Shown piece after piece: positions 6,701 to 60,486 of a stretch of 64,000 nucleotides of DNA. The translations under genes and the position numbers were made by a program. Numbering within the stretch: position 1 is the stretch's first letter; each line of letters opens with the position of its first letter. Under the pieces are notes generated by a model. The model searched no databases. It was not told the DNA's origin and saw only the letters and a program-made list of their open reading frames with translations. This stretch comes from Candidatus Woesearchaeota archaeon (GTDB lineage: Archaea > Nanobdellota > Nanobdellia > Woesearchaeales > DSVV01), in assembly GCA_018657385.1 (NCBI GenBank), contig JABHXF010000003.1:1-64000 (forward strand), in the 5' to 3' direction.

Positions 6701-7429
6701 TCTGAAATACATAAAAATGGATATGAAATGCCCATATTACAAAAATTCTTAAAAGGTAAAGATGTGGATAAGTATCTGCTCAAATGGTCAAAAAATTATG
6801 TAATTTATCCCTATGATGAAAATGGAAAAGTGATTTCAGAGAATATATTAAAACAAAATTATCCTAATATTTATTCTTATTTAATCAGTCAAAAAAATAA
6901 TCTTTCAGGAAGAGGTTATTTTGATAAATCACCAAAGAGATGGTTTGAACTTTGGAACCAACGTTCATTAAATAGATTCAAACAAACTAAATTGCTAACA
7001 TTAGATAATGCTAAAAAAAATAGTTTTGCTTTAGATGAATTAGGATTTACAGGTTCTACAACTGTATATTCAATAATTCTTAAAGATAAAAGTAAAGAAA
7101 ATTACAAATATATTCTTGCACTTCTTAATTCAAAACTAATGAATTATTATCATAAGAATACCACAATACCACAAGCCGGTGGTTTTTTTAGATATCAGGC
7201 AATATTTATTGAAAATTTTCCCATTAAATTTAATGATCAAAAACATAATATTGTTGAGGTTGTAGACAGAATAATTACAATCACAAAAAGTGCAGATTAT
7301 TTAAATAATATGGATGAGCAAAATCATGTGAAAAGTTTAGAAAAACAAATTAATAAGTTAGTTTACAAAACTTATGAGTTGACTGACAAAGAAATTGAGA
7401 CAATTGAAAAATATACCAAAAATGAGTAA
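3758..7429 (+). CDS. Eco57I/TaqI-like DNA N6-adenine methyltransferase
   Basis: Motif I VDPAVGSGAFPMGM, motif IV VIANPPYVEF, C-terminal TaqI-like specificity region; overlaps upstream helicase by 8 nt. Confidence 0.9.
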   Translation: MNEKQAKELLDYTFNKEFDFVNFSNLLKELLNTSNLYKQDKTQFIDKQFKNYILNVIKLGQYKDVSNKSVEILAVKLATHSSLDRARTMQRNFISTWLSKNSNEPVGALVAFYSDEKDWRFSFVKLEYNLMKDQKGNLKAQKEQTPAKRYSFLVGPNEPNHTCKSQFVHLLVDDHDPTLKEIEKAFGIEKVTKEFFENYQKRYWDLRDSLERVIKRDANVKEEFMRIVQNDEEELKNFVVEFSKKLLGQIVFLYFLQKKGWLGVGIYDKWGTGPKDFMRRLFGGGKQNYKPLVKYDNFFNDILEPLFYDTLARKRDGDYCKFGNVAFKIPFLNGGLFEPLDGYKWEATDITIDDNIFKDILNTFDEFNFTVKEDEPLEKEVAVDPEMLGKVFENLLDVSDRKSKGAFYTPREIVHYMCQQSLINYLETNTSISREDIEIFIEMGDITTSNDERILIQIKEKQEKVSKGIISSAIFAKEVEELSNQLNLPKSIVQNKEPIDKLLKDIKVVDPAVGSGAFPMGMMNEIVNARSILSLFFSEERNVYDIKRECIENSLYGVDIMPSAVDICQLRFWLSLIVDEEDKDKVKPLPNLDNKIMCGNSLLEEFEGVKLFDESLLGEEVKDIRPELVRIDNEIKELNLKIGQIITGKIKGDYKELKKDVQKKEREKKKLLEKPNEERNTTLDNIGNVKRNEAKIKLRKFEAKQKEFFNSFDRDTKTRLKKEMDQLEWELIKVTLEEQGNAEALGKLDKIMQSKSKPFFLWKLKFAEVFQRKNPGFDVVIANPPYVEFKNLDKDQKNLLEKVYSSTTGKYDLYIPFIEKSISHLSCQKGFITFICPTRFLKRDYGKGIRLFIKNNAKVFEIVNFTDYQVFSEAMTYTGIFSFINDYEPNSEIIYKKVKNNAIVNKDIITRLLHSKKDNDLIEVINSTMKDLGDAQWFFHNKKNALIINKMVDNSATLRSISEGIYQGIATGKDGVFVIKESEIHKNGYEMPILQKFLKGKDVDKYLLKWSKNYVIYPYDENGKVISENILKQNYPNIYSYLISQKNNLSGRGYFDKSPKRWFELWNQRSLNRFKQTKLLTLDNAKKNSFALDELGFTGSTTVYSIILKDKSKENYKYILALLNSKLMNYYHKNTTIPQAGGFFRYQAIFIENFPIKFNDQKHNIVEVVDRIITITKSADYLNNMDEQNHVKSLEKQINKLVYKTYELTDKEIETIEKYTKNE

Positions 7430-33602: not shown

Positions 33603-34697
33603 ATGGTAGGAATATTATATACAGCAGCAGTTGTTGCAAGTGCAGTTAATGCACAGCCAGCTGAGTTAAAAGAAAGTTACATAAAAGAAGATTCGCAATT
33701 ATGTTTTCAGGTTGATTCTTGTTTTTATAGAAGTTTTGGTCAAGAAGTAAGTGACAACATAAGAGCACAAGGTAGTGAAATATTTTTACATTATATTAAA
33801 GGATTAGTTAACAAGGATTTGTTAGACAAACAAACAGCAAGTGAAACAACAGATCGTGGTTTATTAGTTACAAAATGTAATAATCTAAGAAGTTCTGGAG
33901 TAAAAGAAGAAGTATATCAAAGTATTTGTGATGTTTGCATGGTCTTAGACATGCAGAGTCCTGATGTACAAGATGCAATCTTTACTGATTTTGGTGTTGA
34001 AGAAAAAACAGATCATACAATTGTTTATGGTGCAAGTGTTAGTAGTTCAGCAACTTCATACATAACTTCTGATAGTACTGGAAGAAAAACTGACAGAACA
34101 ATATCAAAAAGAAATGTGGAAACTTATGTTGCAACTAATAGATCAAAACCGTATGTTAGTGCATTAAGTGATATTATGGATGTTGTTGGTTATGATAATA
34201 CCAGAAGAAATGAAATCTTGAAAAATATTGCTGATGAAAACGGAGTGATGAGTAGAGATGCAGCAAAAGGTTTGTATCACAAATGGATGGATGTTATTGA
34301 ATCTTACAAAGATCCAAAACAAAACAAAAAAACAAAAACAAGAATGAAGAAAATCAAGGTAAATGAATCACCTATTAAGAAATCAGAGAGAGATTTAAAA
34401 AATAGGTTCAGAAATGACCAAGATGCTGCAAAAAGATTATATAATAAACATGAAAAAGATGCAGAAGAATTGTTCAATAGAAAACAAAAAGAACTAGAAC
34501 AAGAATTCAATGATGCGCAAAAACAAGGCGAAGAATGGTTTGATGAACAACAAAAACAAGGTGAAGACTGGTTCAATGAACAACAAAAACAAGGTGAAGA
34601 CTGGTTCAATAAACAACAAAGACAAGGCGAAGAATGGTTTAATCAACAACATGGACCAAATAAGATGCCTGGTAGTCTTGGAAAAAGACACAGGTAA
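33603..34697 (+). CDS. Secreted hypothetical protein with hendecad repeats and MPGSLGKRHR tail (operon 1)
   Basis: N-terminal signal-like MVGILYTAAVVASAVNAQP; QGEEWFDEQQK repeats; C-terminus KMPGSLGKRHR. Confidence 0.75.
   Translation: MVGILYTAAVVASAVNAQPAELKESYIKEDSQLCFQVDSCFYRSFGQEVSDNIRAQGSEIFLHYIKGLVNKDLLDKQTASETTDRGLLVTKCNNLRSSGVKEEVYQSICDVCMVLDMQSPDVQDAIFTDFGVEEKTDHTIVYGASVSSSATSYITSDSTGRKTDRTISKRNVETYVATNRSKPYVSALSDIMDVVGYDNTRRNEILKNIADENGVMSRDAAKGLYHKWMDVIESYKDPKQNKKTKTRMKKIKVNESPIKKSERDLKNRFRNDQDAAKRLYNKHEKDAEELFNRKQKELEQEFNDAQKQGEEWFDEQQKQGEDWFNEQQKQGEDWFNKQQRQGEEWFNQQHGPNKMPGSLGKRHR
34524..34655 (+). repeat. 4 x 33-bp coding tandem repeat (11-aa QGExWFxxQQK)
   Basis: QGEEWFDEQQK QGEDWFNEQQK QGEDWFNKQQR QGEEWFNQQHG. 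Confidence 0.9.
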
Positions 34698-42791: not shown

Positions 42792-43427
42792 TCACTTTTG
42801 CATTCTTTTTAAAACTTCGTATGCTTTTACAACAAATTCTTCTTTTAAATATATTAATAATTCAGGGCTTGCAGTCAACAATTCTGTTATAAAAACATCA
42901 TTTACAGCTAATTCTTTTGTTACACTACATAATATTCCCTTTGCATCTACTACTTTGTCATCAAACATTAAACTTATTTCAGAAATATTTTTATATTTAT
43001 TCTTTACTTTAAACATCTTAAGTAGATCTTTTACTTTTGCTTCATTCTTTTCATCAATAAACAATTTAACAGAACCAGATCCAACTACTATTTTGAGTGT
43101 ATCTCCTTTATCATAATCTGTATTTGCAATTAACTTATCTAATTTTCTAACTAATTCTTTTTCTTTTTCAAAATCAAATATAATTATATTATCTTTAACT
43201 TGTGTTTTAATTCCTTTGAATATATCTTTATTTTTCTTACTAATTTCTTTAAATTGAAACCTTCTTAACATAGCTATGACTGCATCTACTTGGTTACTTT
43301 TTGCAATCCCTTGCTTAATTAAATACCTTGCAAGGGATCTTCTATTAATAAGACCTTCTTGGTAACAGCTTTCAACTTCTGGGTTTTTACTTAAGAAAAG
43401 CCTAAATTCTTGTTCTATTTGTGACAT
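42792..43427 (-). CDS. Possible ACT-like regulator divergent from trp operon
   Basis: N-terminal helical/HTH-like part (RRSLARYLIKQGIAKSNQVDAVIAMLRRF); C-terminal ISEISLMFDDKVVDAKGILCSVTKELAVNDVFITELLTASPELLIYLKEE ACT-like. Confidence 0.6.
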   Translation of the reverse strand: MSQIEQEFRLFLSKNPEVESCYQEGLINRRSLARYLIKQGIAKSNQVDAVIAMLRRFQFKEISKKNKDIFKGIKTQVKDNIIIFDFEKEKELVRKLDKLIANTDYDKGDTLKIVVGSGSVKLFIDEKNEAKVKDLLKMFKVKNKYKNISEISLMFDDKVVDAKGILCSVTKELAVNDVFITELLTASPELLIYLKEEFVVKAYEVLKRMQK

Positions 43428-43433
43428 ATTCAC

Positions 43434-43510
43434 CTAATATGTGCCACTTATTAATAAAGTTTTCTATTTGTGACACTATCTTTAAATGTATTGGGCACAA
43501 TATAGTTGTT
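43434..43510. promoter_or_regulatory. Divergent regulator/trpE intergenic region with repeated GTGnCA-type words
   Basis: TATGTGCCAC, TTTGTGACAC and reverse TATTGTGCCC within 77 nt. Confidence 0.4.
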
Positions 43511-45091
43511 ATGAAATCAAAAATTAAAATAGATAAAATCAAAATAAATATTAGATGCAGAGAAATAAAGTATCAAGATCCATTTAAATTATACTCTAAG
43601 CTTTCAGATAATGGGAATAATACAAGTTTGCTTATGGAATCTAAGTCTTTAAATCTGAAATATGGTAGGCAAAGCATTATTGTTCCAGATCCAGCAGTTA
43701 AAATAACAGCTAAAGGAGAAACATTTACAATTAAAGCATTAAATGAATTTGGAAAAAAGATTTTAACTCTTTTTAGTAACTCAGATTTCTTTTTTGCATA
43801 TAATCTTCTTATTTCTACAGATATTATCAAAGGCAAAGTAAAAAAAGAGATTGACAAAAATATAACTAGTGATAATATCATCAAAATGAAAAATGTTTCT
43901 ATTGTTCTTAAGACAATACTTAATAAATTTGATTCTAATTGTAGTTATGCTGCTTTATATGGTGCATTTTCATATGAATTCTCAAAAAACTTTCATAATC
44001 TTACTTTAATCAAAAATTCTAAATCTAATTTAATCAAAAATTCTGAATCAGTGGGTGATTTTGTTTTCTTTATTCCTTCATCTGTATATGTTTTTGATGA
44101 TATTAAAGAAAAAGCAGAATTATTAGAATTCTCTTTTGATAGTATTTCTAATTCAAATATTAACGGATATATAATTACAGAAAAATTAAAACCTATATCC
44201 TTAGAACAATCTAACTCTTTATCTATAGATAAATCTTCATATTTAAATTATAATCATGCAAAAAAAAAATTATCATATGACATGTCTGAGCAGGAATATA
44301 AACTAAAAGCAGATCAGGTCATAAAGGACATAAGAAATGGTAGGGCAATGCAATGTGTTTTATCACGAAGTATAACCTTACCTCTTATTCAACATCCATT
44401 ATTATCATATACTAAATTAAGAAAGATAAATCCTTCACCTTATTCTTTCTTTTATAATTTTGGAGATAATGAATTTTTGTATGGTGCTTCTCCAGAAATG
44501 CATATTGTTGTTAAAAAAGGTGTTATTGAAATTAGACCAATAGCTGGAACCATTTCTAGATCAAATAATGTGTTAAAGGATGCTTCTGCAAGAATAAATT
44601 TGTTAACTGATGAAAAAGAAAAAAGAGAACATACGATGTTAGTTGATCTTGCAAGAAGTGAACTTCATGCAATATGTGTTGATGATTCTGTATATATTTC
44701 TGATTTATTCACAATTGAAGAATATCCTAATCTATATCATCTAGTTTCTGGTGTAAAGGGGGAGCTTAAATCTAAAATTAATGCAATTGATGCTATGTTA
44801 ATTACATTACCTGCTGGAACATTAAGTGGTGCACCAAAATTAGAAGCAATGAAGATGATTGAACAATATGAATCTTCTCCTAGAAATTTCTATGGTGGTT
44901 CAATTGGTTTTCTTTCTTTTAATGGGGATTGCAATACAGGAATTACAATCAGGTCTGTTCATGTTAAAAATAATTTTTCTATTATCAGAGCCGGTGGTGG
45001 GATTGTTTCTCTATCAAATCCTGAAAATGAATTAAATGAAACAAAATTAAAAATGTCAAAAACATTATCTGTATTAGGGGTGGAATTATGA
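43511..45091 (+). CDS. trpE: Anthranilate synthase component I
   Basis: YGASPEMHIVV...EIRPIAGTISR...TLPAGTLSGAPKLEAMKMI; ATG 43511 preferred. Confidence 0.95.
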   Translation: MKSKIKIDKIKINIRCREIKYQDPFKLYSKLSDNGNNTSLLMESKSLNLKYGRQSIIVPDPAVKITAKGETFTIKALNEFGKKILTLFSNSDFFFAYNLLISTDIIKGKVKKEIDKNITSDNIIKMKNVSIVLKTILNKFDSNCSYAALYGAFSYEFSKNFHNLTLIKNSKSNLIKNSESVGDFVFFIPSSVYVFDDIKEKAELLEFSFDSISNSNINGYIITEKLKPISLEQSNSLSIDKSSYLNYNHAKKKLSYDMSEQEYKLKADQVIKDIRNGRAMQCVLSRSITLPLIQHPLLSYTKLRKINPSPYSFFYNFGDNEFLYGASPEMHIVVKKGVIEIRPIAGTISRSNNVLKDASARINLLTDEKEKREHTMLVDLARSELHAICVDDSVYISDLFTIEEYPNLYHLVSGVKGELKSKINAIDAMLITLPAGTLSGAPKLEAMKMIEQYESSPRNFYGGSIGFLSFNGDCNTGITIRSVHVKNNFSIIRAGGGIVSLSNPENELNETKLKMSKTLSVLGVEL

Positions 45092-45792
45092 TTAAGAGAT
45101 ATACAGATAAAATAATAGCAACTAAAAGAAGAGCAACTAATAAACTTATCAAAATATTGTTTATTGATAATTATGATTCTTTTGCAAATACTATTGCTGC
45201 TTATTTTAGAAAACAAGGAGCAGAAGTAATTATGTATAAAAGTGATTGTTCAATTGATATTATTGATGAATTCTTAGAAAAAGAAAAACCAGATTTTATT
45301 CTTTTAGGGCCAGGACCATCTGGACCAAAACAAGCAGGAAATTATTTAGAGATTATTGATAAGTATCATAAGTTTATTCCATTATTTGGAATCTGTCTTG
45401 GTTTTCAAGCAATTATGGAATATTTTGGTGTTTCACCAAAACCATTAAATTTATCAGAAGTAGTTCATGGAGATTCTGTTAGTATTTTAAATGATGGTAA
45501 AACAATTTTTAAAGAAATAAAAAAGAACCAGAAATTTGCAAGATATAATTCTTTAGGTGTTTATGAAGTTCCAGCTTGTTTTGAGATTAGTGCAAAAACC
45601 AATGTTGGAATTAATAATAATTCTAAATTACCTATCATAATGGCAGCAAGACATAAATCTTTACCAATTGAATGTATACAATTTCATCCTGAATCAATAT
45701 TATCTATGGAAAATGATGCAGGGATGAAATTAATAGGGAATGTGATAAGCAATAATACTTTTGTAAACAATGTGGGTGATAAACATGATTAA
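45088..45792 (+). CDS. trpG: Anthranilate synthase component II (glutamine amidotransferase)
   Basis: LLGPGPSGPKQAG, FGICLGFQAI, QFHPESIL; ATGA overlap with trpE. Confidence 0.95.
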   Translation: MIKRYTDKIIATKRRATNKLIKILFIDNYDSFANTIAAYFRKQGAEVIMYKSDCSIDIIDEFLEKEKPDFILLGPGPSGPKQAGNYLEIIDKYHKFIPLFGICLGFQAIMEYFGVSPKPLNLSEVVHGDSVSILNDGKTIFKEIKKNQKFARYNSLGVYEVPACFEISAKTNVGINNNSKLPIIMAARHKSLPIECIQFHPESILSMENDAGMKLIGNVISNNTFVNNVGDKHD

Positions 45793-46927
45793 AGAAATGA
45801 TAGATAAATTAATAAAAAAACAAGAACTTGATAAAAATGAGGTTAAATATATCTGTTCACAAATTGAGAATAATGAATTTGATGAAATTCAATTATCCTC
45901 ATTGTTAGTTGCTTTGCAATCAAAGGGTGTATCTTCAGATGAATTAACATATTTTGTTGATGAGATGATGAGTAAAGCTGTTCTTATAGAAAAAAACGCT
46001 TCTGAAGAATACAAAGATTGTATTGATTTATGTGGGACTGGTGGTGACAAAACATCTAGCATTAGTACATTTAATATTTCTACAGCAACTGTTTTTGTTG
46101 TAGCTGCATGTGATGTAAAAATTGCAAAACATGGCAATAGATCAGTTTCTTCAAAAAGTGGTAGTGTAGATGTTTTAGAAGCTTTAGGAATAAACATTAA
46201 TTTAGATGAAGAAAAAGCAGAAATTTGTTTTAATAAGACAGGCATTAGATTTCTTTATGCATGCAAACATCATCCAGTCATGAAAAATATATCTACAGTA
46301 AGAAAAAGATTAGGTATCAAAACAATATTTAATATGATTGGGCCCTTATTGAATCCAGCAAATGTTGAAAAACAATTACTTGGTGTTTTTGATCCTAAAC
46401 TTACTGAACTTTTTGCTATGGTTCTTAAAAGAAAAGATGTAAAAAGAGCTATGGTTGTTCATGGAAATAGTTTAGATGAATTAACAATAACTGGAAAAAC
46501 AAAAATTACTGAATTAAATAATGGTAAAATCGATACATATGAATTTGATCCTTTTGATAATTCTATTGGTATTTGTAATTCAACTAATAAATCTACAGAA
46601 AATGATTTTAAATATGGAACATTAGAAGAATTAAGGGCTGATACAAAAGAAGATAGTGCACAGATTATAAAAGATATTTTTTCTGGAAAAAAAACAGATA
46701 GAAAAGATATATCAAGAAGAAATATTGTTGTTCTTAATTCAGCTGCAGCTCTAATTATTGCAGGAAAAGTATCTAATTTTAAAGAAGGAATTGAGATGGC
46801 CAAACAAGTTATTGATTCAGGTAAGGTATTAGATAAACTTAATCAAGTGATTGAAATAACATCTTCAAATTCTTATCAAGTGATAAGTAAAGTTAAACAA
46901 GACAAGGAGATGGTGTCTTATGGTTAA
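45785..46927 (+). CDS. trpD: Anthranilate phosphoribosyltransferase
   Basis: DLCGTGGDKTSSISTFNIST, KHGNRSVSSKSGSVDVLEALG. Confidence 0.95.
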   Translation: MIKEMIDKLIKKQELDKNEVKYICSQIENNEFDEIQLSSLLVALQSKGVSSDELTYFVDEMMSKAVLIEKNASEEYKDCIDLCGTGGDKTSSISTFNISTATVFVVAACDVKIAKHGNRSVSSKSGSVDVLEALGININLDEEKAEICFNKTGIRFLYACKHHPVMKNISTVRKRLGIKTIFNMIGPLLNPANVEKQLLGVFDPKLTELFAMVLKRKDVKRAMVVHGNSLDELTITGKTKITELNNGKIDTYEFDPFDNSIGICNSTNKSTENDFKYGTLEELRADTKEDSAQIIKDIFSGKKTDRKDISRRNIVVLNSAAALIIAGKVSNFKEGIEMAKQVIDSGKVLDKLNQVIEITSSNSYQVISKVKQDKEMVSYG

Positions 46928-48560
46928 TATTATTTCAGATATTATAGAAAATAAAATTAGGGAAGTAAAAACTTTAAAAAATAAACTACCATTATATCAG
47001 ATGTTAGTAGAAATGAAAGGTAATTTTTATTCTGATAGAAGCTTTCTTAAAGCAATAAAAGGAAAGAATAATATAATTGCAGAAATCAAATATAGTTCTC
47101 CAACAAATAGTATTATTAGGGATTTGTCTTCAAATAAGTATTTAGATAAAATAAAGGACATAAAAAATATTGTAATTGCTTATGGTAAATATGCCTCTGC
47201 AATATCTGTAATTACAGATGAAAAATTCTTTAGTGGGAATTTAGGTTTTATTAAAGAAGTAAAAAAATATACTGCATTACCAATATTAAGAAAAGATTTT
47301 ATAATTGATTTATATCAAATATATGAATCTAAATATTATGGTGCTGATGCAGTTCTTTTAATCTCATCTTTGTTACATAAGGATATATTAAGATTGATGA
47401 TAAATACTGCAAAAAAGCTTAGAATGGATTGTGTTGTTGAAGTATCATCAAAAAAAGATGTTGAGAAAGCATTAGGCGCAGGTGCAGAAATAATTGGTAT
47501 TAATAATAGAGATCTAACGGATTTTAGTATTGATATTAATAGAACTATTAAGTTAAAAAATATTATTTATAATCATATCAATAACAACAACAACAATAAC
47601 AATAACAACAACAACAATAACAATAACAACAACAACAATAACAATAACAACAACAACAATAACAACAACAATAACAACAACAACAATAACAATAACAACA
47701 ACAATAACAACAACAATAATAACAACAATAATAATGATGTCATTATTATTTCTGAATCTGGTATTTCAACTAGAGAAGATATACTTTATGTTGATACTAA
47801 TGCTGTTCTTATAGGCACTACATTGATGAAATCAGAAAATTTAAATGCCATATCTGATAAATTATCCTCATTACATATATCTAAAATAAAAATATGTGGT
47901 ATTACTAATTTAGAAGATGCAGAAAATGCAATTAAGGTAGGAGTTGATTTTTTAGGTTTTAATTTTTATAATGGTAGTCCAAGATATATTTCATCTGAAA
48001 AAGCTAAAACTATAATCTCTGAATTACAAAATAAATATCCTTATAAATTTCAAACAGTTGGTATTTTTGTTGATTCATCTGTTAATGAAATAAATGAAAT
48101 AATTAGATCTACAAATATTGATTTTACTCAAATGCATAATCCTGAAAAATATTTTGGAAATGAAAAAATAAACAGTCATGTTATCAAGGTATCAAGAATT
48201 AATGAAAATATTTTAATCAGTTCAAAATTATTAAAATCATATGCAACCCTTCTTGATACATACTCAAAAGAAGCATATGGTGGGACAGGTACAACATTTA
48301 GTTTAAAAAGTATTATGGATAAATCTAATAAATTGAATTTACCTGGTAAAATATTTATTGCAGGGGGACTTAATTCAGAAAATATTAAAGAAATTATTTC
48401 AAAAGTAAAACCATTTTGTATTGATATTTGTTCTGCTGCTGAATCTACTCTTGGGAAAAAAGATAATGTTTTGATTAAAGAGATTATGGATATTATGCAT
48501 TCTATAAATATAAATCACAAAAATATAAATGAGAAAGAGGTGATTGCTAATGAAGCTTAA
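46920..48560 (+). CDS. trpCF: TrpC-TrpF fusion (IGP synthase / PRA isomerase)
   Basis: [41 protein letters not shown]; TrpF part [17 protein letters not shown]...GTTFSLKSI...[11 protein letters not shown]. Confidence 0.93.
47580..47735 (+). repeat. 52-codon Asn (AAC/AAT) tract within trpC domain
   Basis: 156 nt of AAC/AAT codons; first part has a 21-bp higher-order unit (AAC)4-AAT-AAC-AAT. Confidence 0.97.
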
Positions 48561-49728
48561 TACTAAATTTGGTGAATTTGGTGGGGTGTATATTCCTGAG
48601 ATGATGGTTGCAGCAATGGAGACTCTAGAAAATTCATTTATTAAATATATTAATTGTTTTAAATTTAAAAAAGAATTAAATCAATTATTAAATGTTTTTG
48701 CTGGTAGACCAACTGGTTTATATCTTGCAAAAAATATATCTTTAGATTTAGGATTTAAAGTATATCTGAAAAGAGAAGATATGTTACATACTGGTGCTCA
48801 TAAAATTAATAATGCTCTTGGCCAAGTTTTACTTGCAAAATATATGGGGAAGAAAGAAATTATAGCTGAGACTGGTGCTGGACAACATGGTGTTGCTGTT
48901 GCAGCAGCAGGTGCTTTTTTAGGAATTCCTGTAAAAGTATTTATGGGTGAAAAAGATATTGAAAGACAAAAACTAAATGTTTATAGGATGAAACTTTTTG
49001 GAGCAGAAGTTGTTTCTGTCAATTCAGGATCAAAAACATTAAAAGATGCTGTAAATGAAGCCCTAAGATATTTCATAACAAATGTGAAAACTTGTTATTA
49101 TCTTATTGGTAGTGTTGTTGGTCCACATCCTTATCCATTGATTGTACAAAAATTTCAAGAAATAATCGGTAAAGAAACAAAAGAACAGATTTTAGCTATT
49201 GAAGGAAAACTTCCCTCGGCAATAATTGCATGTGTTGGTGGTGGTTCAAATGCAATTGGAATATTTAATGAATTTTTAGATGATAAAAATGTAAACTTGA
49301 TTGGTGTTGAAGCAGGTGGAAAGGTAAAAAAACATGGTAAAACATTATCAAATGGTTCAATTGGTATTTTTCATGGTAGTAAATCATATGTTCTTCAGGA
49401 TAAAGACGGTCAGATAAAAGAAGCATATAGCATCTCTGCTGGTTTAGATTATCCAGGTGTTGGACCAATTCATAGTTTTCTTAAAAATTTAAAAAGAGCA
49501 GTTTATGGTAATGCTACAGATGAAGAAGCAGTTGATGCATTAAAGTATCTTTGCAAAACTGAAGGTATTTTACCAGCATTAGAATCATCACATGCTATTG
49601 CATATCTTTTGAAGAATAAAAATAATTTTAATAATAATGATATTGTTGTAATTAATTTATCTGGAAGAGGAGACAAAGATGTCAATCAGTTGATATATGC
49701 AGATTCTGATCTTTATGGGGGATGTTAA
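48550..49728 (+). CDS. trpB: Tryptophan synthase beta chain
   Basis: [49 protein letters not shown]. Confidence 0.96.
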
Positions 49729-49729
49729 A

Positions 49730-50557
49730 ATGCAATATAAAATTCCATCTAAAATACAATATAAAATAATTGGGAACAGAAAAGTATTACCAAACAGATT
49801 TAAAAAGAAAGTATTTATTCCTTTTCTTATATTAGGGGACCCTGATTATAATACATCTCTTGAAATAATTAAATCTGTAATTGATCATGGGGTTGATGAA
49901 TTAGAATTAGGTTTTGCATTTTCAGATCCAATTATGGATGGTATAACAATACAGAAAGCAAATAATAGGGCATTATCGTTTGGTATGAATATAAAAAAAG
50001 CTTTTGATTTGTTAAATGATATTAGAAAATATTCTGATGTTCCTATTAGTTTAATGCTTAGTTTTAATCTAATATATAACTATGGTATTGATAATTTTCT
50101 TTCTGAATGTAATAAATTAAATATTAATGCAGTTTTATGTCCAGATATTCCTTTAGAAGAATCAAATGAATTAGTAAATTTAGCTATAAAGCATGATGTT
50201 AATATTCCTTTTATTATTTCTTTAACAACCTCTTATGAAAGAATAAAAAAAATATGTGATATCTCTTCAGGTTATATATACTTAGTATCATTACTTGGTA
50301 TAACTGGAAAAAGAGAAAATATAAATTATTCTTTTTTAGAGCAGATTAAATTAATAAGGGGTTTAACTGAATTACCAATCTATGTTGGTTTTGGGATCTC
50401 AAAATCAGAACATGTTAAGCATATATTAACTAATGGTGCAGATGGTGTTATTGTGGGAAGTGCAATTATTAATTTAATTGATAAAAATTTAGAAAATAAT
50501 CAAAAAATGATATCTGAAATTATTATATTTGTTGATAAATTAATGGTGAAAAAATGA
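49730..50557 (+). CDS. trpA: Tryptophan synthase alpha chain
   Basis: VDELELGFAFSDPIMDGITIQKAN, YLVSLLGITGKR, VGFGISKSEHV. Confidence 0.95.
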   Translation: MQYKIPSKIQYKIIGNRKVLPNRFKKKVFIPFLILGDPDYNTSLEIIKSVIDHGVDELELGFAFSDPIMDGITIQKANNRALSFGMNIKKAFDLLNDIRKYSDVPISLMLSFNLIYNYGIDNFLSECNKLNINAVLCPDIPLEESNELVNLAIKHDVNIPFIISLTTSYERIKKICDISSGYIYLVSLLGITGKRENINYSFLEQIKLIRGLTELPIYVGFGISKSEHVKHILTNGADGVIVGSAIINLIDKNLENNQKMISEIIIFVDKLMVKK

Positions 50558-50733
50558 ATAAAATCATTAAATTAGTCGAAAGTTTTATATATCATTTGTA
50601 CCTACCTAATGGTATCATGGAAGATTCATTTAGAAATATTAATGTATGTTTACCAATTAATATAGCTTGCAATCTCTCATCAAATAAATTCTTTTCTGAA
50701 TCTTTTAGTTGGTTCTATTTTTATTTTAATTAG

Positions 50734-50860
50734 GCCTGAGTTTAGATAACTGGTCTCCTGCATCTTTAATATCTTATTTAATTTTGCATTCTAATCTCAG
50801 GCGTTTCAAAGAAGCTAGTTATTAAACTAAAGTATAAAAATGGATGATGCTTTCCATCAT
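50734..50860 (+). promoter_or_regulatory. Candidate structured leader upstream of DAHP synthase
   Basis: GCCTGAG(50734-50740):CTCAGGC(50796-50802) interleaved with ATAACTGG(50746-50753):CTAGTTAT(50815-50822), followed by hairpin ATGATG-ctttc-CATCAT (50844-50860). Confidence 0.45.
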
Positions 50861-50910
50861 AAAAACAATGAAAAATAAGGAAAAACAAGTAATAAACGGA
50901 GGAAAATAAA

Positions 50911-51942
50911 ATGATAATTGTACTAAAACCACACACAAAAAAAGAGGAAATAGACAATATTATAGCTAGAATTGAGGAAAAAGGACTAAAACCAGTAACT
51001 TTCGAAGGAGTAGAAAGGACAGTTATACACATTCATGGAGATTCAAGGGGAGAATCTAATAGATTTGCGTCAATTGATTGTGTAGAGAAAGTAGTTAAGG
51101 TTATGAAACCTTTCAAACTTGCAAGCAGAGAGCATCATTCTGAAACAACAGTCATAAAAATTGCAGGTATAAATGGGGATGTTTCAATTGGGAATGGGGA
51201 ATTTGTTGTAATCGCTGGACCTTGTTCAATTGAAAGTGAAGAACAGATAATGAAAGCAGCAAGATTATTGAAAGAAATGGGTGTAAAAATAATGCGAGCA
51301 TCTGCTTTCAAACCTAGGACATCACCATATGATTTTCAAGGCATGGGTATTGAAGGCTTAAAGCTTTTGAAAAAAGTTAGGGATGAAGTTGGTTTACTTG
51401 TTGAAACAGAAGTTATGGATGTTAGAGATGTAAGAATTGCTGCAGAATATGTAGATATTTTAAGAGTTGGGGCAAGAAACATGCAGAACTTTGATCTTTT
51501 GAAAGAAATGGGTAAGATTAACAAACCAGTTATTTTGAAAAGAGGTAGTTCAGCAACTATTAATGAATTTTTGATGGCAGCAGAATATATACTTGCAAAT
51601 GGAAATAAGAATGTAATATTATGTGAAAGAGGAATAAGAACATTCGAAACTGCTTACAGAAATACTCTTGATATTAATGCAGTTGCATTATTGAAAAGAG
51701 AAACTCATTTGCCAGTTATAGTTGATCCAAGTCATTCAGCTGGGGTAAGAGAAATAATCATACCTATCAGCAAAGCTTCAGCAGCAGTTGGAGCAGATGG
51801 TTTGTTAGTGGAGATGCATCCAAACCCTGAAGAAGCATTATGTGATGGTGCACAATCTTTACATCCACATCAACTTGCTCAGTTACTTGGTGAATTAAAA
51901 CCAGTTTGTGAAGCAGTTGGTAAAAAAATAATTTTGGGTTAA
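50911..51942 (+). CDS. aroF: DAHP synthase, type I-beta with N-terminal ferredoxin-like domain
   Basis: VIAGPCSIESEEQ, MRASAFKPRTSPYDFQGMG, VDPSHSAGVRE. Confidence 0.95.
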   Translation: MIIVLKPHTKKEEIDNIIARIEEKGLKPVTFEGVERTVIHIHGDSRGESNRFASIDCVEKVVKVMKPFKLASREHHSETTVIKIAGINGDVSIGNGEFVVIAGPCSIESEEQIMKAARLLKEMGVKIMRASAFKPRTSPYDFQGMGIEGLKLLKKVRDEVGLLVETEVMDVRDVRIAAEYVDILRVGARNMQNFDLLKEMGKINKPVILKRGSSATINEFLMAAEYILANGNKNVILCERGIRTFETAYRNTLDINAVALLKRETHLPVIVDPSHSAGVREIIIPISKASAAVGADGLLVEMHPNPEEALCDGAQSLHPHQLAQLLGELKPVCEAVGKKIILG

Positions 51943-51969
51943 TCTTCAACCCACAAGTTAATAGATAAA

Positions 51970-54558
51970 ATGAAAACAATTAATGTAAACATTCCATCAA
52001 ATAAGAAAGAATACAAAGTTTTAGTAGGCAGTGGAATATTGAATGAATTGAAAAATTTCATTAAAGAAAATCATAAAGGTAAAAGGATTGTGATTATTAC
52101 AGATGATAATGTAAATAAATCACATGGTAAAAGATTGCTTTTGTTATTGTCTGATCTTTTACCTGATGATAATTTATTAGATGACGTATCTTCTAATAAT
52201 TCTCCTTTTTTAATTTCAATCCCTGCTGGTGAAGAGAGTAAATCAAGAGAACAAAAACAAGAGATTGAAGATTTGATGCTTGATGAAGGTTTTGGAAGAA
52301 ATTCATTAATTATTGCTTTTGGTGGTGGTGTTGTAGGTGATTTAGCAGGTTTTATTTCATCAACTTTTAACAGGGGAATTCCATTAATACAAATTCCAAC
52401 AACTTTGTTATCTATGGTAGATTCATCAGTTGGTGGGAAAACTGGAATAAACACAAAACAAGGTAAAAATCTGATAGGTACTTTTTCTCAACCAGAAATA
52501 GTAATTGCAGATATTGATTTCCTTAATACACTTTCAGATGAAGAATTTAGAAATGGGGTTGCAGAAATTGTAAAGATAGCTATTGCATTAGATGAAGACT
52601 TTTTTACTTTTCTAGAAAACAATATAGGTTCTTTAGTACCAAATGTAGAACCTTTAATACCTCAAAGAATAAAATTGGATAAAGAAATCCTTATTGATAT
52701 TATTAGCAAGTCAATAAAGCTTAAAGCAAATGTTGTAGAAAAAGATGAACAAGAATTAGGACTAAGACAAGTGTTGAATTTAGGACATACAATAGGTCAT
52801 GCAATTGAAACAGCAAGAAATTTCAAAGAAAAACATGGGTTTGCTATTTGTACCGGTATAGTTATTGAAAGTAAAATTTCAGAGATATTAGGGTTAATTA
52901 GTTCAGAACAACATAATAAAATAATTAATTTGTTGAAGCAATTAGGATTACCTGTAAATATTGATGAAAATCTTGATTCAAATAATTTAATTGAATTAAT
53001 GAAATCTGACAAAAAAAATACTAGTAACAAACCTAAAATAGTTTTACTTGAAAAAATTGGTAAGATAAAAAATAAAGATAATGAATTTTCATTTGAAATT
53101 GATGAGGGTAAAATAAAACAAGCAATTGATATTTGTTGTGAATCTAGTGTAAATAAACAGGGAATTAGTGAGATAAAATCAATTTCAGAAAAAATCATTG
53201 AGATAAAACCAATAACTAAATTAGATGCAGAAATAAATATTCCTGGGAGCAAGTATGTGGCTAATAGAGTTTTAATGATTGCTGCACTTGCAGATGGAAC
53301 TTCCATATTAAAAAATGTTCCTGATAATGATGATATAAACAAAGCAATAATTGCTTTAAAACAATTTGGTGTATCTATTAAAAGGGAAGGAAGTAGTCTT
53401 GAGATTATAGGGACTGGTGGGAACATTGAAACAATAGAGACTGAAATTCATGTTGGTGAATCAGGAACTTTACTTAGGTTTATCACAGGAATTGCTTCCT
53501 TAGCAGAAGGCAAAATTAAAATAACTGGTAGTAAAAGGATTCAAGAAAGACCAATTGCTCCTTTAATTAATACATTAGAACAATTAGGTGTTAATATTGA
53601 AAGATTAAATCAAGTAAATAAAGATTGTTGTCCAATTGTTGTGGGTGGTGAGAACTTAAATGGAAATAATGGCAATAGTAATAATTTGAAAAGCAACAAA
53701 GTTGTTATTGATGCATCTCTTAGTAGCCAGTTTTTAAGTTCATTATTATTAATTGCTCCAAGTATAGCAAACAAATCTAAAAATGATGTTGAAATAATAA
53801 CAACTGGTGAAGTTGTTTCAAAAAGTTATGTTGATCTTACAATCTCTTTAATGGAAACATTTGGAGTTAAGATTGAAAGAGATGATTACAATAAATTCAT
53901 CATCAAAACTAATCAAAAATTCAATGCAATGGGATTTACAATTCCTAGTGATTGGAGTTCAGCAAATTACTTTTTAGCTGCAGCTGCAATTGTTCCAGGC
54001 AAGATTAAAATTAATCATTTAGACTTAGATTCAGTACATGGTGAAGCTAAATTTGTTGATGTATTAGAAAAAATGGGTTGTGAAATTGAGAAAGGAAAAG
54101 ATTTCATTGTTTTAGATGGAAAAGATTTTATTGCATTAAAAGGCCCTAATAAATTAGTTGGTGTTGAGGTTGATATGTCTTCAATGCCTGACTCAGTACA
54201 AACATTAGTTGCAGTTGCTGCATTTGCAAATGGAAACACAATTATCAAAAATATTAGTAATATCTCCTTAAAAGAAAGCGATAGGATTAATGACACCATA
54301 AAGGAACTTAATAAACTTGGAGTAATTGCTAAATCAAATCATGATGAAATCATGATCTCAAAAGGTTTACTTAATGGAAGGGAAGGGCATATCTCCATCA
54401 TAATTGATCCACATAATGATCATAGGATGGCAATGAGTTTTGCTTTAATTGGTCTTAAAATAAGTGGAATTAAAATCAATAATCCTGGATGTGTCAATAA
54501 ATCATTCCCTGGATTTTGGAAAAAGCTTGAAGAAATTGGCGTTGAGATTGTAAAATGA
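51970..54558 (+). CDS. aroBA: Fusion: 3-dehydroquinate synthase + EPSP synthase
   Basis: DHQS: IAFGGGVVGDLAGF, PTTLLSMVDSSVGGKTGIN, NLGHTIGHAIE; EPSPS: ESGTLLRFITG, KRIQERPIAPL, DPHNDHRMAMSFA. Confidence 0.95.
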   Translation: MKTINVNIPSNKKEYKVLVGSGILNELKNFIKENHKGKRIVIITDDNVNKSHGKRLLLLLSDLLPDDNLLDDVSSNNSPFLISIPAGEESKSREQKQEIEDLMLDEGFGRNSLIIAFGGGVVGDLAGFISSTFNRGIPLIQIPTTLLSMVDSSVGGKTGINTKQGKNLIGTFSQPEIVIADIDFLNTLSDEEFRNGVAEIVKIAIALDEDFFTFLENNIGSLVPNVEPLIPQRIKLDKEILIDIISKSIKLKANVVEKDEQELGLRQVLNLGHTIGHAIETARNFKEKHGFAICTGIVIESKISEILGLISSEQHNKIINLLKQLGLPVNIDENLDSNNLIELMKSDKKNTSNKPKIVLLEKIGKIKNKDNEFSFEIDEGKIKQAIDICCESSVNKQGISEIKSISEKIIEIKPITKLDAEINIPGSKYVANRVLMIAALADGTSILKNVPDNDDINKAIIALKQFGVSIKREGSSLEIIGTGGNIETIETEIHVGESGTLLRFITGIASLAEGKIKITGSKRIQERPIAPLINTLEQLGVNIERLNQVNKDCCPIVVGGENLNGNNGNSNNLKSNKVVIDASLSSQFLSSLLLIAPSIANKSKNDVEIITTGEVVSKSYVDLTISLMETFGVKIERDDYNKFIIKTNQKFNAMGFTIPSDWSSANYFLAAAAIVPGKIKINHLDLDSVHGEAKFVDVLEKMGCEIEKGKDFIVLDGKDFIALKGPNKLVGVEVDMSSMPDSVQTLVAVAAFANGNTIIKNISNISLKESDRINDTIKELNKLGVIAKSNHDEIMISKGLLNGREGHISIIIDPHNDHRMAMSFALIGLKISGIKINNPGCVNKSFPGFWKKLEEIGVEIVK

Positions 54559-56726
54559 AAAAAAACATTGTACTCATAGGATATAGAGCAACTGGAAAAA
54601 GTTCAGTTGCGAGAGAATTAAGTATTAAACTAAATATCCCCATGATTAGTACAGATGAAACTATTGTTAAACAAATTGGATCAATTGCTGAATTTGTAAA
54701 AGAGTTAGGATGGAAATCTTTTAGGGATGTTGAATTTGATGTTATTAAAAATATTTCAGTAATCAATAATAAAGGGAAGGCTTGTATTGTTGATTGTGGT
54801 GGCGGTGTTGTTGAAAATAAAGATAACATCAAACATCTTAGAAAGAATAGTATCATTTTTTTGCTTGATGCTTCTCCAGAAATAATCATAGATCGATTGG
54901 GTTTAAATGGAAGTAGGCCAACACTCACTGGTTTAGGCACAAAAAAAGAGGTACAAGAGGTTTTGTCAAGAAGACAACCACTATATGAAGAAGCAGCTGA
55001 TTTTATTATTAATACAGCTAATGGGGACATAAAAGATATTGCTGCTGAGATTAAATTAGTTGTTGATATGCTTGAAGAAAAAATATCACATCAAAAAAAC
55101 ATACTCCATAATCTAAAAATTGCTGCAGTTGTTGCTGAAGATAATCTTAATGATACTCTTAAAATGCTTAAGAAATCAGAAAATGTTGCAGAAATTGTTG
55201 AAGTTAGAATTGACCACATCAAAAATATAAGTGAGAATGATGTGAAAATTATAATTGAAAACAAGAAAAATAATCAAAAAATTATAATTACTAATAGAAG
55301 AATAAGTGAGGGGGGACTTTTTCAAGGAACAGAAGACGAAAGAATTAATTTATTAAAAACAGCAATTGATGTTAATGCAGATTTTGTTGATATTGAACTA
55401 AGTTCAGGAATTGATGTTGTGAAAAATATCATTACTCTTGTAAAAGAAAAAAATAGTAATGCAAATACAACAGATAACAAAACAAAACAAGACAAGACAA
55501 AAATAATCTGTTCATTTCATGATTTTAAAAAATTACCTGATAATATTAATGATGTACTTGAAGAGATTAAATCAACAGATGCAGATATTATAAAAATTGC
55601 TTGTATGGGTAATTCAGCTGTTGATAATATTATTATGTTTAATCTCATTGAAAAAACAAAGTCTATGAATAATGGGGATAAACAAAAAGAAATGATTGGA
55701 ATAGTCATGGGTAGACATGGCAAAATATCAAGGGCATTATCTGGAATATTTGGTGGATTTATTTCAACATTTGTTCCTGTTTGTAAAGATATTGATAATA
55801 AAACAAGTGTACCCTCTGAAAATCAAAGCGCTCCAGGACAAATTAGTATTGAACAGATCAAAGAAATACAACAAAGATTAGTATTTCAAAAAGTTTGTTT
55901 GTTAATTGGTGATCCTGTTGCCCATAGTATGAGTTCAATCATGCATAATGCAGCATTTGAGAAAGTAGGTTTAGATATTGTATATGAAACCAAATGTGTA
56001 AAAGCAGATGAATTGAAAAATACTGTAAAGAATTTACGTTCATCAAATATTACTGGATTTAATATTACAATTCCACATAAGCAAAATATAATTAATGAGT
56101 TGGATGAAATAGATAGTGTTGCTAAACAAATTGGTGCAGTTAATAGTGTACTAAATGAAAATGGAAAATTAAAAGGATTTAATACTGATTGGTTAGGTGC
56201 ATTAAAAGCAATTGAAGAAAAACTAGAATCTGAAGGGAACAATTTGAAAGATATGAAAGTTGTACTAGTTGGAGCAGGTGGAGCTGGAAGAGCAATTACA
56301 TATGCTATGTCAAGCGTTGGCATCAAAGGTGATAATCTTATTATTATGAGTAAGAAAAAAGAAGATGCAGATAAACTTGCAGATGAATTTAATGGAAAAT
56401 CTGTTGACATATCTGAACTCAATAATATTAAAGCAGATTTACTAATCAATGCTACACCTGTTGGTATGCATCCAAATATTAATGACACTATTACAACTTC
56501 AAACACATTAAAGAATTTTAAAATAGTGTTTGATATCGTTTACAATCCTTTAAAAACAAGATTGCTTAGAGAAGCAGAAGAAGCAGGATGTAAAACAATT
56601 GATGGATTAAAGATGTTAGTACATCAAGGTGCAGCAGCATTTGAATTATGGATTGGTGAAAAACCAGATGTAGATTTAATGTATGATGTTGTAAAAAAGG
56701 AACTGATGATAAATAAAAATCAATAA
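54555..56726 (+). CDS. aroKDE: Fusion: shikimate kinase + type I 3-dehydroquinate dehydratase + shikimate dehydrogenase
   Basis: SK: LIGYRATGKSS, DCGGGVV; DHQase: EVRIDHI, ICSFHDF, IIKIACMG, SAPGQ; SDH: GDPVAHSMSSIMHNAAF, NITIPHK, GFNTDWLG, VGAGGAGRAI. Confidence 0.95.
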   Translation: MKKNIVLIGYRATGKSSVARELSIKLNIPMISTDETIVKQIGSIAEFVKELGWKSFRDVEFDVIKNISVINNKGKACIVDCGGGVVENKDNIKHLRKNSIIFLLDASPEIIIDRLGLNGSRPTLTGLGTKKEVQEVLSRRQPLYEEAADFIINTANGDIKDIAAEIKLVVDMLEEKISHQKNILHNLKIAAVVAEDNLNDTLKMLKKSENVAEIVEVRIDHIKNISENDVKIIIENKKNNQKIIITNRRISEGGLFQGTEDERINLLKTAIDVNADFVDIELSSGIDVVKNIITLVKEKNSNANTTDNKTKQDKTKIICSFHDFKKLPDNINDVLEEIKSTDADIIKIACMGNSAVDNIIMFNLIEKTKSMNNGDKQKEMIGIVMGRHGKISRALSGIFGGFISTFVPVCKDIDNKTSVPSENQSAPGQISIEQIKEIQQRLVFQKVCLLIGDPVAHSMSSIMHNAAFEKVGLDIVYETKCVKADELKNTVKNLRSSNITGFNITIPHKQNIINELDEIDSVAKQIGAVNSVLNENGKLKGFNTDWLGALKAIEEKLESEGNNLKDMKVVLVGAGGAGRAITYAMSSVGIKGDNLIIMSKKKEDADKLADEFNGKSVDISELNNIKADLLINATPVGMHPNINDTITTSNTLKNFKIVFDIVYNPLKTRLLREAEEAGCKTIDGLKMLVHQGAAAFELWIGEKPDVDLMYDVVKKELMINKNQ

Positions 56727-56744
56727 TTACAAAGGTGAAATAAA

Positions 56745-57923
56745 ATGTCAAATACAATCGGTAAAATGTTTAAGATAACAAATTGGGGAGAATCCCATGG
56801 AAAAGCAATTGGGGTAGTTATAGATGGATGCCCATCATTATTAAATCTAAATGAAAAAGACATTCAATTAGATTTAGATAGAAGAAGACCTGGACAAAGT
56901 TCTTTAACTACACAAAGAAATGAGTCTGATGAAGTTGAAATATTATCAGGTGTTTTTGAAGGGAAAACAACGGGTGCTCCTATATCATTAATCATTAAAA
57001 ATAGTGATGCAGAATCAAAAGATTATGATAACTTAAAAGATGTTTTCAGACCTGGACATTCAGATATGACTTTACACCAAAAATTTGGAATTAGAGATCA
57101 TAGAGGTGGAGGTAGAAGTTCTGCTAGAATAACTGCAGGAAATGTTGCAGCTGGTGCAATTGCAAAAAGATTATTAAGAGAATTAGCAAATGTAGAAATT
57201 GTTGGTTTTGTTAAGCAAATAAAAGATGTAATTGCTGAAGTTAATTTAGATTCTGTTCAGGTTAATCAATTTACACAAGAAAATATTGATGGAAGTTTAG
57301 TGAGATGTCCTGATAAAAAAGCAGCAGCGGAAATGAAAATAACAATTGAAAAAGCAAAAGCAGAAAATGATTCAGTTGGTGGTATAATCACCTGTATTAT
57401 AAAAAATGTTCCTGTTGGTTTAGGTGAACCTATTTTTGATAAATTAGAAGCAGACCTTGCTAAAGCTATGATGTCAATTAATGCAACAAAAGGTTTTGAA
57501 ATGGGGTCTGGCTTTAATTCTGTTTTAATGAAAGGTAGTGAACATAATGATGAAATAATTATTGTAAATGAAAAAAATGTTTTAGATGGGAAAATACAAA
57601 CTAAAACAAATAATGCTGGTGGAGTATTGGGTGGTATTTCTAACGGGATGCCTTTGATATTCAATGTTGCTTTTAAACCAACATCAACAATTGGAAAAGA
57701 ACAAAAAACTATTGATATGAATCAAAATGTTGTTGAACTTGAAGCAAAAGGTAGACATGATCCTTGTGTTTTACCTAGGGCTGTTCCTATTGTTGAAGCA
57801 ATGGCAGCTTTAGTTTTATGTGATCATCTTTTAAGGCATAGGGCACAATCTATTTTTTTAAATAAAGGTAACAAAGAAAACAAGGGAAACAAAGAAAATA
57901 ATGGTGGGAATCATGAAAATTGA
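56745..57923 (+). CDS. aroC: Chorismate synthase
   Basis: TNWGESHGKAIGVVIDGCP, DHRGGGRSSARITAGNVAAGAIAK, KGRHDPCVLPRAVPIVEAM. Confidence 0.97.
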   Translation: MSNTIGKMFKITNWGESHGKAIGVVIDGCPSLLNLNEKDIQLDLDRRRPGQSSLTTQRNESDEVEILSGVFEGKTTGAPISLIIKNSDAESKDYDNLKDVFRPGHSDMTLHQKFGIRDHRGGGRSSARITAGNVAAGAIAKRLLRELANVEIVGFVKQIKDVIAEVNLDSVQVNQFTQENIDGSLVRCPDKKAAAEMKITIEKAKAENDSVGGIITCIIKNVPVGLGEPIFDKLEADLAKAMMSINATKGFEMGSGFNSVLMKGSEHNDEIIIVNEKNVLDGKIQTKTNNAGGVLGGISNGMPLIFNVAFKPTSTIGKEQKTIDMNQNVVELEAKGRHDPCVLPRAVPIVEAMAALVLCDHLLRHRAQSIFLNKGNKENKGNKENNGGNHEN

Positions 57924-58995
57924 ATCATTAAGAAAACAAATTGATGATATTGATGATACTATCATTAAATTATTAAAAAGCAGACAAGATATTGTTGATG
58001 CTGTTGCAAATTTTAAAGCAGAAACAAATTTTCCTATTCTTGATGTTGTTAGAGAAGGCGAAATAGTTGATAGACTCAAAAAAAAAGCAATTGAAAACAA
58101 TATTGAACCAAGTTTTGTTGAAAATATAATCAAGATAATTATGACTCATTCAAAGAAACATCAAGCAAGTAAATTATTAAGTTCAGAAAATAAAACATCT
58201 CAAAATAAATCAAATTCATCTTTACACCTCTCAGATTCAAATACAGACAAATCTGGATTTAGAATAGGGATTATTGGATTTGGTAGGTTTGGTAAATTAT
58301 TAGTTAAAAATTTAGCTGTTGATTTTGATATTTTTGTTTTTGATATTAACCATGATAAAGAAAGTGTAATTGCTTCAGGTGGAAAACTTTTATCCCTAGA
58401 AGAAGTATGCAAATCAGATATTATTATTCCTGCTGTCCCTATATCTGAATTTGAGAATATAATTAAACAAATTTCACCATTACTTAAAAAAGGTGCGATT
58501 GTTATGGATGTCTGTTCAGTAAAAGAATTTCCAGTTGAGATTATGAAACAACATTTGCCTGAAAATATTGATATTATTGCAACACACCCTATGTTTGGCC
58601 CAGATAGTGCAGCAGATAGTATTAAAGATAAAAAAATAGTTGTATGTAAAGTTAGGGTAAATGATATGCGTTTTAAAACAATTATTAATCTTTTTAGACA
58701 TAAAGGTTTGATAGTTATTGAAACAACCCCTGAAGAGCATGATAAGCAAATTGCTATGACTCAAGTTCTAACACATTTTATTGGTCATGCATTGATTGAT
58801 ATGGGGGCAGAAGCTCATGAAATAGACACAGAAGGTTACAAAAGATTATTACATATACTTGGTGTTGTTTGTAATGATACTTATCAATTATTTGAAGATA
58901 TTAATCATCAAAATAAATATTCAGATGAAGTTAGGAAAAAATTAATTTCATCATTGAAAAATATAGATGATAAATTAAAACAAAGTAGGGGATGA
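57913..58995 (+). CDS. tyrA: Chorismate mutase-prephenate dehydrogenase fusion
   Basis: AroQ domain ESLRKQIDDIDDTIIKLLKSRQ; IGIIGFGRFGKLL, THPMFGPDSAADS. Confidence 0.9.
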   Translation: MKIESLRKQIDDIDDTIIKLLKSRQDIVDAVANFKAETNFPILDVVREGEIVDRLKKKAIENNIEPSFVENIIKIIMTHSKKHQASKLLSSENKTSQNKSNSSLHLSDSNTDKSGFRIGIIGFGRFGKLLVKNLAVDFDIFVFDINHDKESVIASGGKLLSLEEVCKSDIIIPAVPISEFENIIKQISPLLKKGAIVMDVCSVKEFPVEIMKQHLPENIDIIATHPMFGPDSAADSIKDKKIVVCKVRVNDMRFKTIINLFRHKGLIVIETTPEEHDKQIAMTQVLTHFIGHALIDMGAEAHEIDTEGYKRLLHILGVVCNDTYQLFEDINHQNKYSDEVRKKLISSLKNIDDKLKQSRG

Positions 58996-58999
58996 AAAA

Positions 59000-59860
59000 A
59001 TGAAAATCGGATTCCAAGGTATAAAGGGTGCATATAGTGAAATAGCTGTAAATCAATATTTTAAGAATTTATGTGGGAATATTGATGCAATTAGTTTTGA
59101 TGGTTTTGATGATGTTTTCGAAGCAGTTAAAAACAAAGAAATTGATGCAGGAGTTATACCTTTTGAGAATACTATAGCTGGAAGTGTTGCATCTAATTAT
59201 GATCTGCTTGTTCGTGATGGGTTGGTTATAGTTGGAGAAGTATTTGTAAAGATAAATCATTGTCTGCTTTTCAATAAAGGTACAAGTTTTGATAATCTTA
59301 AAACTATTTATTCACATCCTGTTGCATTAGATCAATGTAAAGATTTTATCAAGAAGCATAAACTTAAAGCTGTTCCTGTTTATGATACAGCTGGTGCTGC
59401 AAAGATGGTTAGTGAAAGATTAAGAATTGATGAGGCAGCAATTGCTTCTAATTTATGTGCTGAAATCTATAATTTAAATAAAATTGATGAATCTATTGAA
59501 AGTCATGTAAGTATTACAAAGTTTTTCGTAGTTGTATTACCTGAAATGGTTGATAGGATTAATTTAGAGACTATTCAATCTACTAATGAAAATATTAAAA
59601 AAGAAAAAACTTGTATTGCTTTAAAGACAAAACATTATCCCGGTGCTTTAGTAAATGCTTTGCAAAGACTTTCTATGCATAATGTTAACATGACTAAATT
59701 AGAGTCTAGACCAATACTTGGTACTCCATGGGAATATATGTTCTTTGTTGAGATAGATGGTGGAATAGATGATGAAAATATAAAAAAAGTATTAGTAGAG
59801 ATAGAAGCAACATCATTGTTCTTTAAAATATTAGGTAGTTATCCTAAAGGAACAGAATGA
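59000..59860 (+). CDS. pheA: Prephenate dehydratase with C-terminal ACT domain
   Basis: GFQGIKGAYSEIAVNQYF, GVIPFENTIAGSVASNYDLL, HVSITKFFVV, TKLESRPILGTPWEYMFFVEIDG. Confidence 0.95.
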   Translation: MKIGFQGIKGAYSEIAVNQYFKNLCGNIDAISFDGFDDVFEAVKNKEIDAGVIPFENTIAGSVASNYDLLVRDGLVIVGEVFVKINHCLLFNKGTSFDNLKTIYSHPVALDQCKDFIKKHKLKAVPVYDTAGAAKMVSERLRIDEAAIASNLCAEIYNLNKIDESIESHVSITKFFVVVLPEMVDRINLETIQSTNENIKKEKTCIALKTKHYPGALVNALQRLSMHNVNMTKLESRPILGTPWEYMFFVEIDGGIDDENIKKVLVEIEATSLFFKILGSYPKGTE

Positions 59861-59907: not shown

Positions 59908-60486
59908 CTATTTGCCTCTTCTTTTGTTTGCTCTTAGGCTAGGTCTGATTTTCTCTGCACCTTTACCTTTATTTCTTAATCCACGAGATTTTCTTCCAGC
60001 AGATGTTTTGCCTCTGAAAACTCTTGCTCTGTGTTTTGGAGCAGCAGTCCATCCAAGACTTTTATCACTTTTAATTGCAGGATGTTTATTATCAACTAGA
60101 ATAATTTCATACCATACATAAATTGCATCTTCTATTACCCAATAGCTGTTAAGAACTTCGCAATTAACATATTTTCTATTAGCTCTTTCTTCAGCAACTT
60201 GCTGATAGCTTTTACCTACATTTTTTCTTCTTGTATATCTTCTAGGTTTTCTACCACCTGCAGGTTTAGGTCTCATCCTTCCCCCTCTCTTTACTTTTTG
60301 TCTAACAACAATAATTCCAGGCTTTGCTTTGTAACCTAAACTTCTAGCTCTATCTAATCTTGTAGGTCTTTCAATTCTAACTGTAACTGGTTCCCTTCTC
60401 CAAGAAATAAGTCTTTTTGTCCATAACTCCTTCATATTAGCCTTAGGCTTTTTCCAAATGTTTCTTATATGTTTGTAAACTCCCAT
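59908..60486 (-). CDS. rpl15e: Ribosomal protein L15e
   Basis: [14 protein letters not shown]...[44 protein letters not shown]. Confidence 0.97.

Follow-up and report, generated by a model that had tools for sequence, protein, structure and literature searches.

We found that an archaeal contig carries the five enzyme domains of eukaryotic AROM, in AROM order, on two overlapping fusion genes, and that this arrangement very probably arose by local, stepwise fusion of adjacent aro genes in an operon that was already ordered aroB-aroA-aroK-aroD-aroE (B-A-K-D-E). AROM is the textbook multi-enzyme protein of fungi and protists, with the domain order B-A-K-D-E. The window analysed here is the whole 64,000-nucleotide stretch of contig JABHXF010000003.1 from a Candidatus Woesearchaeota archaeon.

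Results

Two overlapping genes encode five shikimate pathway domains

Gene 1 (51970-54558, plus strand; 862 aa) encodes an AroB-AroA fusion, with AroB at about residues 1-390 and AroA at about residues 409-862. Gene 2 (54555-56726, plus strand; 723 aa) encodes an AroK-AroD-AroE fusion, with AroK at residues 1-170, type I AroD at 188-440 and AroE at 446-717. Both genes were delimited by ORF calls, Pfam and NCBIfam profile matches and AlphaFold models, and the Pfam and NCBIfam matches run in the order B-A-K-D-E across the pair. All four curated NCBIfam equivalog cut-offs were passed: AroB (TIGR01357, 368 bits versus a cut-off of 305), AroA (TIGR01356, 381 versus 287), AroD (TIGR01093, 155 versus 139) and AroE (TIGR00507, 250 versus 200). 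AroK is a P-loop kinase with a Walker A motif (SKI, PF01202, 119 bits versus 22). Chance is ruled out for these matches, with whole-protein E-values down to 1e-114. In the alignments we observed the catalytic motifs of every domain: GHTIGH and EIVK in AroB; the K, R, D, E and HR positions in AroA; Walker A and GGG in AroK; His, Lys and Arg in AroD; and K and D in AroE. Within each domain, AlphaFold predicts the fold with confidence (mean pLDDT of 90 for gene 1 and 88 for gene 2). A sequence-only reading of the window had proposed this domain content and order, the five sets of motifs and a kinase of bacterial P-loop type, all of which are borne out; no archaeal GHMP-type shikimate kinase (TIGR01920) was found in the rest of the 90%-complete genome.

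The two genes sit within a 16-kb trp-aro operon (43421-59860, plus strand) that places 17 enzyme domains on 12 genes: trpE, trpG, trpD, a trpC-trpF fusion, trpB and trpA (43421-50557); aroF, DAHP synthase, step 1 (50911-51942); aroBA; aroKDE; aroC, chorismate synthase, step 7 (56745-57923); a chorismate mutase-prephenate dehydrogenase fusion, CM-tyrA (57901-58995); and pheA, prephenate dehydratase with an ACT domain (59000-59860). We assigned trpD and trpCF by HMM, trpE, trpG, trpB and trpA by ORF reading and matches to related loci, and aroF and the genes downstream of aroKDE by profile matches. Because TrpC-TrpF and CM-TyrA are fused as well, the operon as a whole is fusion-prone. Within the TrpC domain, 52 asparagine codons (AAC/AAT) follow one another at 47580-47735, and the run divides the IGPS match in two.

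The contig had been read as archaeal, and its genes agree: ribosomal L15e lies directly downstream of the operon (59908-60486), and eIF-6 and an archaeal prepilin peptidase are also present. GC content and codon use are alike in the operon and in the rest of the contig. We therefore rejected a mis-binned bacterial contig, given archaeal genes on the operon's flanks and even composition. Elsewhere in the window, an HKD-plus-SNF2 helicase adjoins a type IIG restriction-methyltransferase (568-7429), probably as a defence pair, and a block of ORFs without evident family, a minority of them searched, spans about 25.6-41 kb. This block holds a hypothetical ORF (33603-34697) with 33-nt repeats at 34464-34651 that encode EEWFN(Q)QQKQG-like units.

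Relatives share the gene order and differ in which joints are closed

We scanned the genomes of 85,462 species with gene 1 and separately surveyed 353 genomes of the same taxonomic order; all genomes compared are metagenome assemblies. None of ten members of the same family (G001-G010, a genus-mate included) had a gene 1 match, nine of the ten also lacked AroC, and the whole aromatic operon is apparently absent from these ten genomes of the same genus or family. Its distribution is therefore patchy, by gain through transfer or by loss in the others. The order B-A-K-D-E was present in 12 further archaeal genomes of the same taxonomic order and in 4 Fidelibacterota, the carriers including Woesearchaeota ARS74, ARS106 and Zod_Metabat.672, the unplaced archaeon SI037_bin40 and further archaea. 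Many other archaea of this taxonomic order have B-DE-A-K instead.

The B-A-K-D-E loci fall into five states of fusion: B|A|K|DE (L002, L004, L005, G130, G135, G136, G137 and G564), B|A|KDE (L003, G235, G342, L006, G566 and G567), B|AK|D|E (G247), B|AKDE (G141) and BA|KDE (the window). G141, an archaeon of the same taxonomic order (L303 6731-10141 plus L302 1-1083), has AroB, a single in-frame TAG and then an A-K-D-E frame of about 1108 codons, which we joined inside AroD from two contigs with identical 48-nt ends. The TAG and five codons separate AroB from the AroA ATG, and the two are in the same frame; as assembled, only that stop codon keeps G141 from encoding a complete protein in AROM order. 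All four AROM joints are thus closed somewhere among the B-A-K-D-E genomes and none examined closes all of them. The sequence-only reading had pointed to relatives as the place to look for fully fused or split versions; split and differently fused ones were found, and no five-domain B-A-K-D-E ORF turned up among the genomes examined. Mapped by parsimony onto the trees of AroB and AroA, the joint between K and D changed at least 6 times, A-K at least 2 times and B-A at least once. The fusions seen in B-A-K-D-E operons are B-A, A-K, K-D-E and A-K-D-E. In Bacteroidota with operons ordered B-DE-A, two have a B-D-E fusion instead (959 and 878 aa in G1089 and G1097; L324 2855-5734 and L325 3769-6405), and fusion order therefore follows operon order.

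Several of these fusions have known counterparts. AroD-AroE fusions also occur in some archaea and bacteria, and a survey of archaeal fusions lists aroD-aroE and aroE-aroK, so that shikimate enzymes are fused in other archaea as in the window (PMC11237513); B-A, A-K, K-D-E and A-K-D-E fusions are unnamed in the passages of that survey cited here. The D-E fusion is also common to gene 2 and plant DHQ-SDH (2gpt), and the predicted D-E arrangement of gene 2 resembles 2o7s (TM 0.74 on target length). Gene 2 differs from bifunctional AroD-AroE in having shikimate kinase in front and an overlap with aroBA, and it scored 168.5 bits against the cut-off of 598 for the bifunctional model NF006802. The Fidelibacterota operon (L006, G566 and G567) has the same order and a K-D-E fusion, and it and the window share a clade on the trees of AroA, AroB and AroK. 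It differs in that AroB and AroA are separate and AroD and AroE lie on another branch than the window's.

Domain phylogenies place the window with archaeal and Fidelibacterota genes

We built one maximum-likelihood tree per domain and ran AU tests on constrained trees. AroA, AroB and AroK of the window fall within a group of B-A-K-D-E archaea and Fidelibacterota (the BAKDE group): AroA is in a BAKDE clade with support 99/100, AroB is sister to G247 (100/94) and AroK is with the BAKDE group (91/83). AroD and AroE are also sister to G247 (100/99 and 95/96). Grouping the window AroD with the other BAKDE AroDs was rejected (AU p 0.032), and the same constraint on AroE gave p 0.46. Gene 2 therefore joins pieces with partly different histories, D, or perhaps D-E, having been replaced within the operon. 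A common ancestry of the K-D-E fusions in the window and in L003/L006 is unsupported, as the window AroD pairs with that of G247, where D and E are separate, and the window K-D-E fusion is probably independent.

In all 13 AroA sequences checked, from the window (53194-54555) and its BAKDE relatives, Tyr stands where E. coli has Ser23 (GSKYVANR), and AroA of the BAKDE clade has GESGTLLRF around Gly96. This active-site variant of EPSP synthase could be relevant to glyphosate sensitivity.

Common descent with fungal AROM is unlikely

The window resembles AROM/Aro1 (6hqv, 7u5s) in its N-to-C order, P-loop kinase and type I dehydratase, and a source mentions AROM in prokaryotes in passing (PMC7052976). 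There are four differences: (i) the window has two polypeptides with a native A|K break, where AROM is a single polypeptide; (ii) its AroE is of general bacterial/archaeal type, scoring 147 bits against the 196-bit cut-off of the AROM-type AroE model TIGR01809; (iii) on the trees its domains fall with single genes of archaea and Fidelibacterota; and (iv) its modelled D-E arrangement is nearer to the plant enzyme. Among solved structures, a fungal AROM matches gene 1 best over its whole length, and nothing but AROM chains covers all of gene 1, because AROM holds both domains. Comparing domain placement in the window models with the AROM structures gave an rmsd of 17-22 A and speaks neither for nor against a likeness to AROM.

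We asked how far eukaryotic AROM and the window operon might descend from a common B-A-K-D-E ancestor, with AROM as its fully fused descendant. The identical order, which is not that of the pathway, speaks for such descent, as does the placement of fungal AROM among woesearchaeal AroB in the AroB trees (AU p 0.018 against a placement with Proteobacteria). Our AROM sample, from the PDB, is fungal only; each domain is represented by no more than two or three sequences, which sit on long branches, and in this sample a grouping of AROM with the BAKDE group was supported in none of the five domain trees. Holding the two together costs 13.1 (A), 7.4 (B), 19.0 (K), 32.9 (D) and 16.6 (E) log units; AU p values are 0.30 for A, 0.37 for B, 0.09 for K and 0.17 for E, so that the clade is not rejected in these four, and 0.044 for D, where it is rejected. 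The five domains combined give a Fisher p of 0.041. The AroD result calls for caution, because AroD of Candida is inactive and degenerate (PMC9074039) and the AROM sample is fungal only. Also against a common ancestor, AROM AroA is nearest to gammaproteobacteria, with scores of 268-293 bits where the window gives 176-185, and the window AroE falls below the AROM model as given above. Taken together, the sequences make common descent with fungal AROM unlikely. It would be just as surprising if AROM came from a BAKDE operon by a route whose living intermediates are the window (B-A | K-D-E) and G141 (B | A-K-D-E). Of the ideas in the sequence-only reading, a precursor-like stage holds as an analogy, from operon order to fusion order, and fails as demonstrated AROM ancestry; the per-domain phylogenies align the window with archaeal and Fidelibacterota relatives, not with fungal AROM.

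The B-A junction indicates joining, and the A|K break a native gene boundary

AroB and AroA of gene 1 are joined by an 18-codon linker (53140-53193, plus strand) that has no in-frame ATG, GTG or TTG and is modelled at low confidence (pLDDT <50 at residues 394-406). At the ancestral AroA start position, by comparison with G141, the window has ATC (53194-53196): it reads AAA ATC ATT GAG ATA AAA CCA where G141 reads AAA ATG ATT GAA ATA AAG CCG. This start-codon scar indicates joining and not splitting. No other open frame across AroB and AroA was present in about 1,000 genomes and 80 scan loci, and the B-A fusion is so far known only from the window among the genomes examined. The junction also contains a weak tandem repeat over 53169-53213; by hand count, 53164-53223 reads as two imperfect 30-nt copies that are about 70% alike. 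We offer as a suggestion only that a short stretch at the AroA start may have been duplicated and so given rise to the linker.

Genes 1 and 2 overlap by the four nucleotides ATGA (54555-54558), with the gene 1 stop overlapping the gene 2 start on the same strand, and both ORFs and this overlap are as first read. AroA ends in EIGVEIVK* in the window and in EIDVEIKNV* or EIGVEIKNV* in relatives; AroK begins with MKKNIVLIGYRATGKSS, matching the relatives' MSKCIILIGYRGSGKTT. Since the AroA end and AroK start match the positions in unfused relatives, where A and K also overlap but in a different frame, the A|K break is, on this comparison, a native gene boundary.

A complete B-A-K-D-E protein could still be made if a fraction of ribosomes slipped by -1 at GTA-AAA-TGA (54550-54558), where AAA re-pairs perfectly and is followed, in the new frame, by the ATG that starts gene 2. 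We consider this improbable, as the sequence is not kept in relatives and such sites are a common by-product where ATGA overlaps follow A-rich codons. More doubtful still is a sequencing or assembly error within a native five-domain ORF, a concern raised by the sequence-only reading. A 1-base insertion in the four-A run at 54552-54555 would bring gene 2 into the gene 1 frame; the run is only four long, however, and a proper stop and start stand at the positions seen in relatives, which overlap in another frame. We rejected the error on these gene boundaries. Transfer of a eukaryotic AROM followed by its split into two genes, also proposed earlier, shares the domain order and the full-length match of gene 1 to AROM chains alone among solved structures, and is hardly credible given that its nearest relatives in trees and operons are genes of archaea and Fidelibacterota that are either unfused or fused in other ways, that the A end and K start are at ancestral positions and that the B-A scar indicates joining.

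Discussion

The local-fusion account is built on sequence, gene order, relatives, scars and tree positions; activity, coupling and selective reason are inferred. In the fusion of B and A, the AroB stop would have been lost and the AroA start changed from ATG to ATC; in gene 2, K would have been joined to D-E. Of the three options first raised, convergence, through local fusion, fits best, as relatives carry the same order unfused or differently fused. Most likely, the window and eukaryotic AROM came to their identical order by convergence, with fusion order copying operon order.

AroB and AroA catalyse steps 2 and 6 of the pathway, and AroK, AroD and AroE steps 5, 3 and 4. The two proteins would jointly convert DAHP to EPSP, flanked by AroF (step 1) and AroC (step 7). 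The ATGA overlap is expected to couple translation and to yield near-equal amounts of both proteins, which may assemble into a complex. Substrate hand-over cannot explain the B-A fusion, because B catalyses the first of the five reactions and A the last, with no intermediate in common. More likely, the fusion would serve to fix stoichiometry or to aid co-assembly, or operon fusions would simply have become fixed in a lineage prone to them.

These fusions show that a giant enzyme can be built piecewise from an operon: each AROM joint is seen closed in some prokaryotic genome, and the window and G141 are one break short. As the B-A joint connects the first step with the last, it speaks against hand-over of substrates being the general driver, and natural partial fusions are now available for asking what fusion gains. 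The odd order of AROM would record the operon order in AROM's own ancestor, and that AROM order is a fossil of operon order becomes a testable proposition.
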